Origin: Arthonia radiata
Lineage: Eukaryota > Ascomycota > Arthoniomycetes > Arthoniales > Arthoniaceae
NCBI GenBank assembly: GCA_002989075.1
Contig: PSQN01000014.1
Location: 124,001-188,000 of the forward strand
Direction of reading: 5' to 3'
DNA length: 64,000 nt
Made by a program: the position numbers and the translations under genes. Under the pieces are notes generated by a model. That model worked only from the letters and a program-made list of their open reading frames with translations. It did not search any database and was not told the DNA's origin. Shown piece by piece: positions 20,018-57,454 of this stretch. Within the stretch, counting starts at the first letter, position 1; each line of letters opens with the position of its first letter.

Positions 20018-23000
20018 TCAGCCCGCCTTCTGTTTGACGGTAGTCCCTCCAAAAAGCGTCTCAGCCGACCCAATGCCGGTGGATAATATTACAAACATAG
20101 TGCTGGCGATTGCGAAGCCGCCCTGAACATCGTGCTTGCCTATCGTCCACGCGAGAGCAACGGCAATACTCACAAGTCCACATATGAACAGCACAGCGCA
20201 CACACGCTCCCGATCGACGTCTTCGATATATTGGATGCCCCATCCGTCGCAGTGCCCCTTGATCGGGCAAGCCTGCAGTTTCTCTCGAAGTTTCTTTGGC
20301 ACCCACTTGAAGAGCACCTGATCGGGCTCGGCTTGCTCAGGGTGCTCCATCAGATGAAGCATCAGCTCAGGCCCAATAGGCGGCGTCCAGCTCACTGGCT
20401 CGTACTCGTATTCTTCAATATGAGGCGGTGGGATACAGTCAAGCTTCTGCACCTGAGCAAGGCCGGACCGAAGCATGTCGAACTTGACGAAGCGCATATC
20501 GATCAAGGACTTCCAGGACAAAGCGCCCCGCACGGCACCACGAGCCGTCTTGTATTGTTGCGAAAGCGCTTCGAAGAACCCTCGATCGGACAGTATCCAG
20601 TCTGATGCAGGCTGGTGCACTCGCGAAGCTCGCTTCATGTGTGGTAAGACCAGAACGAGATGGCTGCTAAGGCTACCTGGTCTCCGAAACGGGGTTTGAG
20701 CTCCATTTGCTACAGTATTCGAGAGGTTATGTTGAGGTAGCGAGCTCTGGGAGTTGGAAGATGAATTGTACACGAAAGAGATCACGTAGTTGTAGAATAT
20801 TGAGATATGCGTAGTAGGAGGAGGAGCAATGTTCGCAGGCTCGTTATGTTGACGAACGCTGGGTGTGACCGGGCGCCGGCGCTCCATAGAACGTAGCGTG
20901 CGTCGAAGCTCGTCAAGACCGCCCTTTTGAAGCTCTGTGTAATCGTCTGCCACGTGTCGGCCGCAGGCGCAGTGGAACGATACTCGCTCTTTGCCCCCTT
21001 CGGACTGCCCCCTCATAACATCGTCTATGAAGTTGCGCGCGTGTGACAGGGCCAAAGTACGCCAACTGTGCGGCTTGAATGTAGGATTTGAGAACGGCTG
21101 GTGAGGCTCGGATGTCTGTGTCTTGGAAGTACTTGTGCAGGCAGTATCCCAGGATGAACGTGTTGAATCAATCTTCAGTCCACCGACGTCTTCTTGCGGA
21201 TGAGCGAGTCGGCAATGAAGCCGGAAGTTGTCAACTCGTAACCAGACTTTCTTCGACTGCCGACAGCCAGAAGAGGCACATACAAAGGAATGTGCGGAGA
21301 CTTGATGATACCTCATCTGGTGCTCCTCTAACTCAGATTTGTCAACATAGCCGTCGTCCCTACCGTTACAAGTCGAGAAGGTGCAGAGCCATCGCTGTTG
21401 AGGCACGCAATAGTGGATTGTGCCTTTTCCGAGCCGAATAATATCTGTCTCACAGCGTGCACACTCAACAAGTCTCGCGCATTGCTTTGACCGCACCGTA
21501 TCAACGAAAGCCTCCAGCCTATCGAGAAAGCTGTCAAAGGATTCTGTAAACATCACAAAGTTCTGCACTTGCTCGAAAGGCAGGTATCGTAGCTCCCCAT
21601 CATCGGTGTCGTTGGCTTCGCTGATCGTCTGGTAGTCATCTTCTGCCTCGACGACTACATCGTCTTCTCTGCGCTGATCACCAACATTTCCCGCTGCCAG
21701 ATCACTGGACCGCTTTTTGACGCCAAATGCATCTTTCGCAGGATGTTCAAAGAATTTGCCAGTGAGTCGCTCCGCAGCGAGACTAACGCGTGCCCTTAGA
21801 TAGGCAACAACCTGACTCTCGAGCGCGTCCGCAACATGACGACGAAGCTGATAAGACAAGAATGTGAGCAGCCTCCGCAGGTTGCGCTCGAACTGCGCAG
21901 CGTCCATGTCTTTCGAAGCGTTCTTGCATATGTGCGAGAAACGCTCATGCTTGGCAAATGCGTCCAGACATGCATCGAAGAGCTCTATTTGAGCGGCAGA
22001 AGCTGCTGAGGTTTGGCTTGATGTGATCGAATGTTTGGAGAAAATGCTCGCCAATGAACCAGTGTCAGAGAAAGCATCCATGTCATCTCGATCAGAGTCG
22101 TCTAGCTCTATCACAGGTGCAGTATAAGGGTGTGCAAACGGAGACTCTTGCATGGGGGCAACACCTGCAGCGTCAACTAACCCTCGATCCTGATAGTAAC
22201 CTTCGAAGTCCCACTGTGGGTCCCTGATAGCCCCTGAGTATCCGCTTTGATTCAGATGCACTGTATTCTTCTCTTTCGAACTCCGACCACCAAAGGAGTC
22301 ATCGTCTGTTCTGAGAGAAGGAACTTCCGGGAATGGATGATCAAAAGGATCGTTAGAAAGGTATTCAGTTACATCCACGCTCTTATCGGATTCCAGAAGT
22401 TCATTAGACTCGTTGGAATTGTCCCAGAAGTCAGTAAAAGGCGCCTCGAGGTTATCCACCCCTACCTGCTTTCCGCTTTGCTTGGCTCTAGCTCTGCTCT
22501 GCTCCGAATGTGGAAAGACGTTTGAGATCTCGCTGACGTGCAGAAGGCTAGGGACTTGCCTGGTTCTGTCTTTGAGCACTGCGTTGTTTTCTGTCGAGCT
22601 TGAATGTAGGTTAGGAGCAGGGACTTCCTCTTTGCTCCGCTGCGACGTTTTCTCAGCCGCATTAGTCTTCTCTGACGCTGTCTTACAAAACGGACAATAC
22701 CACGTCTCCCTCCCAGCTGGCGTTCTCTCCATGCCCACACACTCCAAATGGAACCATTCCACCGTACACGCCGCGCCATCGCACGCCACCATCCTCCCGT
22801 GATCGATATCCCGGCAGATACAGTAAATCGGCACGCCATTCTCGTTAAAGCCGCTGTCCTTGGGCGCTTCGAGGTTTTTTTTGTTGCCTTGGGTTGTGAT
22901 GGCGGCGAGGGGTTTGGACTTCTTGGCGGCTTTGAAAGATACGGTTGTAGATGACTCTACCAATTCGCGCTCACTAACAGGTGGGTCACCTGGTCGCTCA

Positions 23001-24253
23001 AAAGGGCTTGCAGCTTGTACACTGTCGAGTGGGCTTCTTGCAGGTGTAACTTCGATCATAGCTTCTCCCGTCGTCATCACCCGCAGCTGCTGACGCTTTT
23101 CGTGGAGTTCCATGGTCTTCATTTTGCTTGTTGAGCTTATGAGTGTGGGGGCTGAGATGTCGTTTTTATTTATGATCGGAAAGCGACGAGCGCGGCGGAC
23201 GCCACGATCCTTTTCAGGTTGTGTTGAGGATGAGTACGTGTTCAGTGACAGTGTGGAAGCTGGTCTGAGGCGTCCATAGTCACGGCTTGTTTTCTTCTGC
23301 GAGAACCTGGCTCGTGCAATCTCATCTGAAGCTACCGGTGATAGCTGCGCCGCCTTTCCCTCGACAACGCCTGGTGGTTGAAGTAGAGACCGGGTCATAA
23401 GAGTGGCTTTACTGGTGGCAGATGACGACTCATTGGCCCAATCCTGCGCATCTTTTGCGACATCAAAACGTTCACCCAAATGCTGGGGAAACCAGCCTCG
23501 ATCACCTTTCAAGAGTCCATACCACCAGCCTTGGTTACTTTTGGCACGAACCTGAACAACATCGCCGGGTCCAAACGCCAGAGCCCACTTGACCCGTGGG
23601 TTAAAGTGGGAAACAGTCCTGACCGTCAAATCGGCTCTTTCATCGAATGTCGGCGAATCACTCCACGTGGCAGCCTCGACTGATATGAGGTTTGTCGCCT
23701 CAGCAATCATTCCAGCTTCATCCACGTTGTTGGTGTCTTCATCAAGGTCCTCTGGTGTATCTGGGTCCAGGGAAAGAGGCGGAACAACGCCATGCTTCTT
23801 CCAATGCAGACCACATGCGTCGCAAAGGGTCTGACCGGAGGTGGTACTTCGCCACAAGTGCGTGGTCTGTGTGTAGCAGTTCGCACATGCCTTTAGCTCT
23901 GCCGTCTTGATCTTGGCGACGCTGTTAGAAGCCGCTGACAAGGTCGTCGAGTCCTGCGATAGCCTGTCTTTCGCTCTAGATTCCAATTTCCTGAGCGCGC
24001 GACTGTACTCAGGCGACGGTGAGCGACCTCGAAGACTGCTGTGTATGTCTGCGAGTGACGGCGAGCTTGATGGAGCATTCGAAACATCGATGTTGTTGTC
24101 GATTACAACAGACGTTTTCGAAGAGGTGAGCGAGGAGTCTCCATCATCATTAGAATACATGGACAAGCAGTCAACAGAGCCAGGCCACAGCCGGATGCCT
24201 TCTTCACCGCGCCGTGAGGTAGGGCTACCCTTACGCCTGAAGAGCTCGCCCAT
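20018..24253 (-). CDS. Multidomain protein: GATA finger, SH3, ING-type PHD, fungal core, C-terminal membrane segments
   Basis: One unbroken frame of 1,411 residues. Domains in order: GATA zinc finger ~123-148 (CANC...THLWR...[12 protein letters not shown], a Cx2Cx17Cx2C loop); SH3 ~209-262 ([36 protein letters not shown]); PHD ~476-523 ([27 protein letters not shown]...WYCPFC), closest to ING/Yng readers of H3K4me3. From ~730 a fungal core follows: [48 protein letters not shown], two Cys/His finger-like segments, and [20 protein letters not shown]. It ends with [51 protein letters not shown] and two hydrophobic helices. The C-terminal half matches the 51981-57454 protein. No internal stop or splice is needed. 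Two closely apposed genes are an alternative, but no start region is visible near the junction. Confidence 0.8.
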
Positions 24254-51980: not shown

Positions 51981-54900
51981 ATGGCGGCACCATTTGATGA
52001 TGGTTATCACAGTGGAGGAGATACGAGACTTGATGGCAGCGATGCTGCAGAAGGTAGCTACATATTCATCCATGAGGACGATCTTTCCGTCGGCAAAGAC
52101 TCGCGTAGACAGCGTCAAACCAGTCTAGAATGGGACAACGATCTGCCAAACCCCTTCGATCAACGTGCGGGTACGACGACTACGCAAACGCTTCTTGCTT
52201 CCGAGAGCCTCGAAAATTGGGCCAACCAGGAACCTTGGTCCGGCGCACCGCGCTACAGCGACGGAGTCAATGCTGTAGTCCCTCCCCATAACGACTCGGC
52301 TTATGCCAGCAATGTGTCGTCCGCCACTCGCGGGCGTACCAAAACAGGTCGCGAATGGCAAGACAATACTGGCGTGTTCCGCCGCACGCCGTATGAAACG
52401 ATTCAATCAGCTGATACTTCGACAAGACCGACCCGAGGAGAGACCACTTCACCTGCTGGAAGTATAGATCATGGTAGCATGACTGTGCCAGGCGAGAGCA
52501 CGTGCATACACTGTAAGAGAGGATTCACGGTCAAGTCTGAGCTGGAGAAACACATGCTCCGGCATGCACGGCCCTTTCGCTGTAGCCTATCAAGCTGTAA
52601 CAGGTCAACTGAAGGCTTTGTTACGCTCAACGATCTGGACCGACATAACAGAAGTATGCACGGCATCTTCTGCAAAGCTGCCAAGGTCTACATTTGTGCA
52701 GTTAAAAACTGTGCCGAAAGAAAGGAGATCTGGTCAACGCTAGACAGCTTCATACAGCATTGCGAGCGCAAGCATGGGCGTGAGGGGTTGGACCGCCTCA
52801 TACGCAAGTCCGAAAGACAGGCGCCCGAGCCATCTGTTGAGACACAGCCGTATCTTCCAGAACGCACAAACAGGCGGCAACCAAGCACATCTTCCTCATC
52901 TCCCAATTTCACTCAGAACAGAGAGACAGACCTCATGACTGTTGCTTCGCCTATCGGTACACCCGCTCCCCCCTCCCTTCCCAAGCGCTCAAACTCAAAA
53001 ATCGCTACCGCAAACTCCGCCCTCGTCTCTCGAGCTTTCAACCAAGCAACCGCAGCCTACCGTCGCGCCCCTCAGACCGTCTCATGTCCGGCGCTGCAGC
53101 ATATTACTCCCAAATCCTCCGAGACCAGCCGAAAGCCAATGTGTCACCGAACGTGCCGGCGAAGCAACTGCCACTGAAGTTTGCTTCTATGCAGAGCCTC
53201 GATCTTGGGATCGGTGTAGCAGAAGTAGCGGGAGTGAAACAGCCGCAATATGTTGCAGAGCACGATCCTCTCAGAAGTGGCACTGTATTGCCTCCTGCAC
53301 CTCCTCGCTCACTATTAAGACACCCGCCATCCAAGGCACAGAGAAATATCTACACAGTTGGCTTACAGCGGTATCACAGTTCCTTCATGAAGTGGTTGAA
53401 GCAAGAATGCGCAACTGACGTCGAAAAGTATCGACGATTTTGCGACCTGATACACGAGTACCGGAGTGATCCGTCTAACACCGAGAGATACCATAATGAC
53501 AGTGAAATGAAGCGCGTTCGCGAAGGCGCCTCGGACATCTTCGCGAGCAGACCCGACATCACTGCGGGGCTCATAGACTTTATACCTGCAGTGGCTGCGA
53601 TCCGGCGTATGACTTTCGCAAGGAATGCCTCCAGCCTTGCGCGTGAAGCACAAGAGCCTGTCCCCGTTGGCGAAGGCAACTTCTCGCGTGAGCGAAGCCA
53701 GCCGGCCGGCTACACACCAGGACCATCTGCGACCGTTGACGCATCTTTAGATCCAGAGCCAGACACAGTCAGTGGCTTTGACCCAGACCTTGATGACCAT
53801 GGTTTGCACAGCGTTGCTCAGCATGACGATGACATATGGTCGACAGTGAACCCCGAGTCTGCAAGACCTGGGCGTGGACATGATTCGAATTTGAACGAAG
53901 ATTCAAGAACCAGAGATCTTGATTCTGCCACGAGTGATAACGGAGTTACAAACTTGCGCCTGCAGTCCATCGCAGGACTCTATTTAGATCCGACCGATGA
54001 AGAATCTGACATTTCGCAGCGTTTAGAAGCAGCTGATGGTGGTGATTACCATCTCAGCGTTTCTCGTGGGGGCGATCTCCGAGACTCGACTCCAGCTGGC
54101 ATACAAGCTGTGTTTGCTGGCGCAGGCTTGACCGACGTTGGCAGTGATGATGCCCAACAGGACATCACGGTGTCTACAGTACACTCCATGACCGGAACGA
54201 CTGTGTCTCGCATCAATCCCAAAGGGGAACTAGAAAAGCTCCTCACGACAATGCAGACGGCATCCTTCCGTGGTCTTATTCGGGATTGCCCGGATCATTG
54301 CTTGTCTCTCGAATTGAAAGACCTGCAAAGGAAACTTGAACTGCTGCAAGAGACTTCGGTGTTGACCATAGTTGTCATCCAAGATGAAGCAGTCTCGCAA
54401 ACTTTAACGCTGTGTCGCAGCCTTCTCGCAGCCATATGTCATGCTCTTGAGGAGGCACCTGAGCCTTCAAATAACTGGCATGGATCTGAACCTGATCGCA
54501 ATCCTTTCTCAGACTATATGCTGAAGCTGAACTACTTTTACGAGTCCACGAGAGACTGCAATTCTTCATTGACAAAGGCGATGTATACTGTGGAAGCGCG
54601 GAAGACTTTCCCGTTGATCAATTCACTTAAAACTTCCATGTCACATCCTCTCCCGAACCAGCTCGAACCGGGTCCTGGTCCAGAGGCAGGAATGAACATT
54701 GACAAACGCCACGACACAACTGAGTTCAGCGAGTCGTTCGACGATGCATCTGATCGAATGTCAATCTTTTCTGGAGACGGTGGAAGCCTCTTCTCCATCA
54801 TCTCAGATACCTCGAGTCAGACATCGGCTGCGCAAGTCGATCTGATAAACGAGTGTCTCAAGGGACTGGCCGGTCACCCAAGAGTATACCGAGCAGGGAA

Positions 54901-57454
54901 ACAAGCAATGTCAGTACTCGACAAAACGCGGTTTGAGCGCAATCTTGACAGGCTGTTCAAACAGTTTGCCCGAAGGCTCAGAAGCGAAGCACAGCAACCG
55001 CTGGAGGAGCAAGCTGCAAGGTTTTTGAGGAGGCGAACCCGCTTTGCCGCCGACTTCTTGACCAATGTGTTCCTCAAGAGCAATGATAAGGACGGCGTTG
55101 CCCAAGTCGCCAGGCCTGAATGTGAAGATAAGCTCCCTGAATTGAACAAAGCCCGAACTCATGTGATAGACGCGAACGCGGACGAAGACTCCAACTGTGA
55201 ATCAGAACCAGATGACGACCCGTCGATGTCCTCCGAGCAGATCAAGAGCTTTGTGATGGAGGGCCAAGCTTTCGAGAACTTCTTGCTCGATCTTGAGACC
55301 TTAGCGGGAGTAACAGCGCCTCTGCCCAAAGCTGGCACTTACTGTGGCCTTATTACTACACCATTGGAAGCGTTGCTTCTACTGGCAAGCGGCTCCTTAC
55401 TCTCTGTTCAGAGGAGGCTCTCCTATGTGGAGCGCCAGGCTATTAGCTCTGGCTCGGTCTTCGCCTCGTATGCTAACCACCTCCACGACAGCTCTTGGGA
55501 CGACGGCCGTAGCTGGGCTGAGCAGTCAGGAGGGACATTATCCAGCGTAAGCATTGAGAAAGTTGCGCCGTTAGCGCCAGGCAGACTCTCCACCAATACG
55601 AAGACCGAGGGCCGGATGACGAGGCGCATATTCACTTTCGAGGACTCAAGAGGTCGCAGGGTCCATATCTTTGCTTACGCACAAGCTCACTACTACCAAA
55701 CATCCGACATAAGACAACCAGAGTTTGTTCCGCATTTGGGTGAGCAAGTGGTCAAACATCTCAAATCCAGCAGTAGAGTCTGTGTGCGGCGCCACGCTGG
55801 CTATAACAGCAAGCTACGCAACCTCCTCAGAAGAGGATTTCTGCTCCAGATCAATTACACTACGCTCTCCAAACTTTATGTCCACTCTCGAAGCATACCT
55901 CAATCAGTCAAAGGAGCGAATGTTGGCCCGTTTCTACTTATGCAGGAAGCGCAGTCAATGAGAGGGCACGATGTCGTAGAAACGATTTCGTCTGCGAATA
56001 TGACACTACCCATGGATGTCCAGGTCGATGCGTGCAAATTAGCGACACCGGGTACAGGCAGGGTGCATAGAGTGACACGAGCACTTCAGACCAGGGTGGC
56101 GAACCTCGTAGACATGATCATGCGGCCAAAGCTTCAAGCGGGAAAGCGCAGGCTGCAGTGGACTTGTGTGAGTTAAGAAGATTTGCAATAATGCTGTCTT
56201 CTGGCCGTGCGCTGGTTTGCTGACAAGAGATAGCGTTGTGGTCAAAGGCTGTTCGACGATTACATCGAGCTGCAGCCTGGTGCACTTGATCGATTACAGA
56301 TCGAGTTGGATTCTAGACGATGGAAGCATAGTGACTCCAACTCGGCCAGTGCAGAGGCGGAACAAACGGGGGGCGCGCGAAGCCTGATGCTGAGCTTGCG
56401 AAGTGCATTCGACTTTCGCCGGCGAAGCGACGACGATACAGAAAAGTTGCCTGACCATGAGGTAGGGCCCCTCTGCTCTACGTTTTGAGCATCACCATTC
56501 GTCTCCTCTGTTTTTACTTGCACGCCTTATATGCGACCAAATGAAAGCTCTGACGATCTTTGCAGCAGAACACTCAGCGGACCGCGCAAACGCAGCCTCA
56601 CGCATGCCCATTTCAAAGCTCCACGGACCGTCTCCTACTTGTACGCCCACACCGATCGCACGCGCACAAGGTCGAACAGCCAGTATCCTGTGCTATCGGC
56701 ACTGACATCGACTTCTTCTTAACGCTTTGCAAGCACTACAGCTTGTTGTGTCACAACTTGAGACATATGCTTTCATTGCGAGGGCTCAAAGAGGTACGAT
56801 TCGTGGAGTTTCAAATGCGTCGCAACGAGCTGGCCCACGTGTTAAGACTCGACGTTGTGCCGCCTGATGCTGAGAAAGACAACTATCGCTATACGCCAAT
56901 GCCGCCGGAATACTTGCCGCCGATCGGATCAAACGAAATGCTCCATTACATGCATCATCCTGAAGTGAGTGATGCTTGTTCATTCTCAATCTGTCTACTA
57001 GCTCGCTGATGCAGCGATGATAGGATCTTCTCGAGGGAGCGGACATGTTCTCTACAGTGCCGAAGAAGCTTCGTGACCCTCTCAAAGCTTGTCCACAGAA
57101 AGGCTACGGCGTGGGCTGGGGCATTCAGTTTGTTGAAGGTGTTGAGGTACGTTGACAATCGTTGCACCACTTTTGTTTCTATTACCACAGCGTTCCCGGA
57201 CCGTCGCGGTCGTATGCTTCGGGCACTCGTCAAGACTCGTTTCAGCGCGCTCGCTTTGAACAGCCACTGACGTAAGCACGTAGTACAAACGCGCCTGCGC
57301 GCTCTCTTTCACGATCATCGTAATCTCAACGATCGTTTCGGCCATCGTCGCTGTCCGAAATGACAATATACAAACCGGTTTTGCGGTAGGAGCCTACATA
57401 CTTCTGGCGATGGGAAGTGGACTCGGTGCGCTACAAACAGCGTTCGACAGATAA
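51981..57454 (+). CDS. Multidomain protein: three C2H2 fingers, PAH-like segment, fungal core, C-terminal membrane segments
   Basis: An N-terminal frame from ATG 51981 carries three C2H2-type fingers (C175/C178/H191/H195; C201/C206/H222/H227; C239/C244/H260/H265). A second frame, open by 53084, continues to 56167. Joining them needs an intron; GTACAC at 52957 to CAG at 53075 (119 bp) keeps frame but is not proven. Next comes a PAH-like segment (~53372-53588, YHSSFMKWLKQ...DIFASRPDITAGLIDFIP), then the core: [47 protein letters not shown]. Four C-terminal introns (56168-56233, 56462-56565, 56965-57023, 57147-57283) restore WTCRCGQRLFDDYIELQPGA, RFVEFQMRRNELAHVLRLD, PKKLRDPLKACPQKG, GWGIQFVEGVE and two hydrophobic helices to a stop at 57454. 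Core and tail match the 20018-24253 protein. Confidence 0.75.

Follow-up and report, generated by a model that had tools for sequence, protein, structure and literature searches.

We find that a long open frame in Arthonia radiata probably encodes a mosaic protein, in which an older, membrane-ended arrangement of N-terminal motif, SH3 domain and core has received two inserted modules, a GATA finger and a presumably working PHD finger derived from an ING-like gene. The frame lies on the minus strand at positions 20018..24253 of the window, by which we mean the whole 64,000-nt stretch of DNA that was analysed, and runs for 1,411 codons with 0 internal stops. The original prediction had described an unbroken frame of 1,411 residues without stating its strand, and the frame is indeed stop-free at exactly these positions. 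The chance of an equally long stop-free run is about 1.6e-24 at the given base composition, and a chance explanation of this openness is negligible. Codon usage, trained on 10 ORFs of the same genome (including the ING donor and two core paralogues described below), ranks this frame first among the six in 29 of 34 codon-usage windows; those lost start at residues 1, 41, 441, 921 and 1321, the one from residue 441 covering the PHD block. Since the losses include the windows from residues 1 and 41, the first ATG may not be the true start, which could be farther downstream. The presence of GATA, SH3 and ING-type PHD modules in one frame was also borne out, as profile and structure matches agree (the PHD falling just under its Pfam cut-off), and at the sequence level the combination of chromatin-type modules with a membrane end is real. 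The architecture itself was not found in a literature search limited to open-licence PMC papers.

Judged by its DNA, the PHD block was copied within this genome, from an ING-like gene. A whole-genome DNA search with the 4,236-bp gene returned the gene itself and a single further place, a 250-bp stretch at C5:1468546-1468795 that is 85% identical (213/250) without gaps and lies about 1.3 Mb from the gene, in the 3′-terminal part of this ING-like gene. The copied part corresponds to residues 442–524 (22682..22930, minus strand) and includes the PHD finger at residues 477–524 (22682..22825, minus strand). Two control stretches of the window, of 3,195 and 5,220 bp, gave only self-matches in the same search, which misses similarity of about 68% (three such cases described below, the pair of ORF 51981-53177 with L019, and the genes L012 and L014, were all unlisted). 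The edges of the block can be read in ungapped comparison by 30-nt blocks, where identity is 22–29 in eight inner blocks and 18 in the 5′-edge block, against 5–7 per 30 nt in the four blocks before the copy and 9/27 after it. Donor and copy are ungapped over the whole block, so this comparison speaks neither for nor against a retrocopy. The donor frame has 953 codons; its PHD is C-terminal (24.5 bits against a cut-off of 24), and its N-terminal part matches ING weakly (16.4 bits against 23.9). Three ING-like genes were met in the genome, with an ING match above cut-off in L015 only (72.1 bits; 21.3 in L018); for yeast, a passage of PMC8123807 gives three ING proteins.

The PHD scores 22.9 bits in Pfam (residues 478–523), slightly below the cut-off of 24, and against solved structures it is clearly of ING type (ING1, 2.7e-18; Pho23, 3.1e-17). 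As predicted, it keeps all eight zinc ligands (C4HC3), and Tyr477, Met488 and Trp500 occupy what we take to be the H3K4me3 cage positions; where the cage has a serine, copy and donor alike read Asp. One cage residue, Y198 of ING4, is named in a passage of PMC8123807. The protein thus resembles the ING family (Pho23, Yng1, Yng2, ING1-5) in carrying a PHD with the eight ligands and the Tyr/Met/Trp cage, with the donor in the same genome. It differs from that family in that no ING domain is among the 9 Pfam families listed for the 1,411-aa protein up to E 1, in that the PHD is internal rather than C-terminal, and in its hydrophobic C-terminal helices.

Over 83 codons, copy and donor differ at 37/249 nt (7, 7 and 23 by codon position), with 13 residues changed, a dN of 0.075 and a dS of 0.668, and by this dS of 0.67 the copying is not very recent. 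We simulated decay with 40 synonymous events, a transition weight of 2 and 400 runs in each of four settings. A neutral copy showed as few changed codons as observed in a fraction of 0 to 0.0075 of the 400 runs across the four settings; at an omega of 0.5 the fractions were 0.005 and 0.015 when half of the time was assigned to the copy, and 0.10 and 0.26, which is no rejection, when its share was a quarter. In this simulation a freely decaying PHD copy is rejected, with the proviso that conversion between donor and copy could look like constraint. Its kept ligands, cage residues and constraint suggest that the PHD is most likely the one captured module that works.

The GATA finger (residues 123–162; 23768..23887, minus strand) was identified by Pfam (residues 123–156; 46.1 bits, cut-off 26.8), by solved structures and by comparison with genes of the same genome. 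Its Cx2Cx17Cx2C spacing is intact, as had been claimed, in the form C123-x2-C126-x17-C144-x2-C147. With AreA-type factors it further shares C-[YF]-TQTT and HGVV-x-PLSL, and the closest of the four GATA genes of this genome that were compared is the AreA-like L014 (30/54 residues; 71/104 nt, or 68%), so the finger looks AreA-derived. This similarity was seen in pairwise comparison and was not listed in the whole-genome DNA search, and on the DNA compared the finger has no donor as clear as that of the PHD. Unlike AreA-type factors, however, it reads CDAC for CNAC and WRS for WRR, and an acidic stretch (residues 163–179; 23717..23767, minus strand) takes the place of the basic tail, which reads KTDVIKKRNR in L014 and [11 protein letters not shown] here. 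We take the Asn of CNAC and the basic tail to be DNA-binding features of the AreA-type finger, and because both are changed, DNA binding is doubtful and the grip of the finger on DNA is probably lost. The solved fingers of AreA, GATA-1, -3 and -4 that were shown all have Asn at CNAC, and a basic tail is named for a GATA-type finger in a passage of PMC10693065.

The SH3 domain (residues 209–264; 23462..23629, minus strand) stands above the Pfam cut-off as SH3_2 (residues 211–257; 32.2 bits, cut-off 21.8) and also as SH3_1, and under it as SH3_9 (25.9 bits, cut-off 30); it is further identified by solved structures and by comparison with L017, a gene of the same genome. Its ligand groove presumably consists of the ALYDY tyrosines, the Trp, the Pro and the last Tyr. 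The Trp and Pro are kept, whereas the ALYDY of L017 reads TVSHF here and the last Tyr has become Leu, so that the three groove tyrosines read Ser, Phe and Leu. The SH3 of the Coniocarpon relative discussed below matches that of L017 in 40/86 columns, and a frame overlapping at the L017 locus encodes RasGEF domains. The original prediction that the modules look functional therefore holds for the PHD, with its ligands, cage and constraint, and fails for the GATA finger and the SH3, where the known binding residues differ. By these residues, only one of the three modules retains its textbook-ligand positions.

The core (residues 708–1405; 20039..22132, minus strand) ends in hydrophobic helices as predicted. 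Two C-terminal stretches, at residues 1351–1369 and 1379–1397 (20063..20203, minus strand), have mean Kyte-Doolittle values of 2.64 and 1.55, with a loop of about 9 residues between them and 14 residues behind the second. They align with hydrophobic stretches of two paralogues, and hydropathy together with this alignment suggests a membrane hairpin. The core also holds a C2H2-like Cys/His region recognised by sequence comparison (residues 931–1018; 21200..21463, minus strand) and a family motif with CxCG and DDY, seen in the paralogue alignment (residues 1090–1108; 20930..20986, minus strand). It had no match up to E 10 among solved structures, and the model predicted from a five-row alignment was unusable (mean pLDDT 40.5, pTM 0.29).

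A collinear core of about 700 residues with the terminal hydrophobic pair, found here in full, defines a family with at least five members. Relatives in the same genome include at least L013 (C5:104498, 711 codons); a second member in the window, apparently of several exons (C5 ~177–181 kb; window ~53084-57150, plus strand); L010 (C9:2566871, 639 codons), followed by a partial piece; L009 (C12 ~1,065–1,070 kb), which spans nearly the whole core, has in-frame stops inside aligned stretches and is probably a decayed copy; and a weak match on C8 (E 0.0098). C5 carries three of the family members between 104 and 181 kb, a span of about 80 kb. The second member in the window carries a Gti1/Pac2 (WOPR) piece at residues 752–813 of its first ORF (28.5 bits, cut-off 23.6), which has a relative in the same genome at C9:335191 (41%) and roughly corresponds in position, judged by order, to the C2H2-like region. 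No Pfam family was found at E 0.1 in L010, L013 or the first frame of L009, and inserted regulator modules are seen in two of the five main members. A PAH-like stretch noticed by eye in the second member was dropped, being absent from the Pfam list at E 0.1. A C2H2-like ORF (51981-53177, plus strand) precedes and overlaps that member and resembles L019 on C3 (67.7% over 288 nt); under the criteria of our script, no consensus intron would join ORFs 51981-53177 and 53084-56176 into one gene.

Some plant NLRs display copies of regulator domains as bait, and the core family could similarly be a sensor that displays the organism's own regulator domains, in which case the copies would need to keep only their fold. 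A GATA finger that retains its zinc ligands and not its DNA-binding features would suit such an integrated decoy, and the WOPR piece of the second member and the closeness of three members on one contig also fit. On the other hand, there is no NLR domain among the nine Pfam families listed, two paralogues and the first frame of a third lack any Pfam family as described above, and the constraint on the PHD suits a reader equally well as a bait. We regard the decoy as unlikely, if conceivable.

The hairpin could also belong to an SREBP-like regulator, whose N-terminal part would be cut from the membrane on a signal and enter the nucleus. The likeness to SREBP-type membrane-bound factors lies in nuclear-type modules placed before two adjacent hydrophobic helices, but no bHLH is among the Pfam families listed here, the DNA-binding features of the GATA finger are changed, the loop is short and few residues follow the second helix, all of which makes this reading rather improbable to us.

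We favor the mosaic, and the age of its parts can be judged against one relative. Queried with the whole protein, the protein database gave one match among 7,989 scored candidates, the Coniocarpon cinnabarinum prediction Q9159_003581 (P0002; 2,138 aa, predicted from a MAG). Core residues 700–1411 matched none of 7,991 scored candidates at E 0.001, and residues 335–535 none of 538 at E 0.01, no ING protein among them either; on our assumption that this database is poor in fungi, absence from it says little. In direct alignment with P0002, core residues 708–1405 are 51% identical (365/715 columns) and residues 62–264 are 32% identical (64/203), with the N-terminal motif (residues 62–101; 23951..24070, minus strand) and the SH3 matching and the GATA finger without a counterpart. 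P0002 thus has motif, SH3 and core in the same order and differs in having neither GATA nor PHD. Its Pfam list contains SH3 and SLS1 domains and no GATA or PHD, and it has 0 cysteines in residues 1–210 and two in residues 260–560. The prediction runs from the core directly into SLS1, and by its make-up it probably arose when the gene caller fused two adjacent genes. The genome studied here has SLS1 as a locus of its own, about 95 kb away on the contig that carries our gene, and because of this shared contig we favor orthology of our gene and P0002.

With the order of parts compared to one relative, from a MAG and with a gene model probably merged with SLS1, SH3 and core look like a shared older arrangement and GATA and PHD look like additions. 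The proposed recent fusion of two genes meeting at 22,000–22,700 is not borne out by this comparison, as motif, SH3 and core are already joined in P0002, and the search for the same domain order recovered the SH3 and core in this one relative and not the GATA and PHD. By its DNA the PHD block is the newer part, and the GATA finger is probably newer too. GATA and PHD could instead be ancestral, with Coniocarpon having lost them or the gene caller having missed them there; a single relative predicted from a MAG leaves some room for this, but DNA identity between the PHD block and the ING-like gene of its own genome is 85%, whereas protein identity between the core and its Coniocarpon counterpart is 51%. 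The PHD therefore probably joined after the Coniocarpon split, unless gene conversion refreshed the block, and we consider an ancestral GATA and PHD quite unlikely.

Upstream of the PHD block, residues 356–397 (23063..23188, minus strand) are identical at 86/126 nt to the C-terminal part of L012 (C9 ~2,654.7 kb), a frame of 1,304 codons in which no Pfam family was listed at E 0.1. The similarity to L012 (69% over 195 nt) is visible in pairwise comparison only, and because of its lower identity we read this segment as older than the PHD copy. Six candidate in-frame introns use four donor sites, of which those at residues 934 and 1287 fall in stretches alignable with Coniocarpon and those at residues 506 and 523 lie inside the PHD. 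One candidate of 96 or 108 nt starts in the last PHD cysteine codon (window 22,686 downwards, minus strand) and another of 99 nt lies inside the PHD; if spliced, these would ruin it. The ING parent has the same donor-like letters as those at 22,686, so the 96/108-nt candidate may be due to chance. The linker between PHD and core (residues 525–707; 22133..22681, minus strand) found only itself when residues 525–711 were searched in the genome at E 0.1. That the frame gives two products, a GATA-SH3-PHD protein and a separate core protein, would agree with this unmatched linker and with candidate introns in and after the PHD, but is very unlikely given that codon usage backs the frame in 5/5 windows starting at residues 521 to 681 and that SH3 and core lie within one predicted Coniocarpon protein.

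We suggest, then, that the mosaic began as a fungal protein with the N-terminal motif, the SH3 and the C2H2-like core, ending in two hydrophobic helices. After the split from Coniocarpon, an AreA-like GATA finger and an 83-codon block from near the end of the ING-like gene would have entered in frame; we infer the order of insertion and the mechanism of copying. The protein would sit in the ER or nuclear membrane, and because the loop is so short both of its ends should lie on one side. Zinc fingers require a reducing compartment, and for this reason the long N-terminal part is expected in the cytosol or nucleoplasm. There the PHD, with its ligands, cage residues and constraint, could hold K4-methylated H3 tails beside the membrane, while the GATA finger, given its changed residues, may serve as a zinc-folded protein-contact surface and not as a DNA binder. 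Membrane insertion and its side, histone binding and the loss of DNA binding are all read from sequence features.

Most cases of domain shuffling are deduced from old proteins after their donors have vanished from view. Here the donor, the recipient and the edges of the PHD block can all be read within one genome, and since membrane helices close the recipient, a histone reader may have been relocated to a membrane. A bolder reading, to which we attach little probability, is that the core family repeatedly captures modules of the organism's own regulators (AreA-like GATA, ING PHD, WOPR and perhaps a RasGEF SH3) and holds them at the membrane as baits or tethers; it is suggested by regulator modules in two of the five main members, and the same count is its limit. 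If true, this would be a receptor-like family of fungi that integrates host domains without belonging to the NLRs. Should other paralogues also have captured modules of regulators, for which the WOPR piece is a hint, the idea of such a family could be put to the test. This gene shows, in readable form, a protein put together from spare parts.
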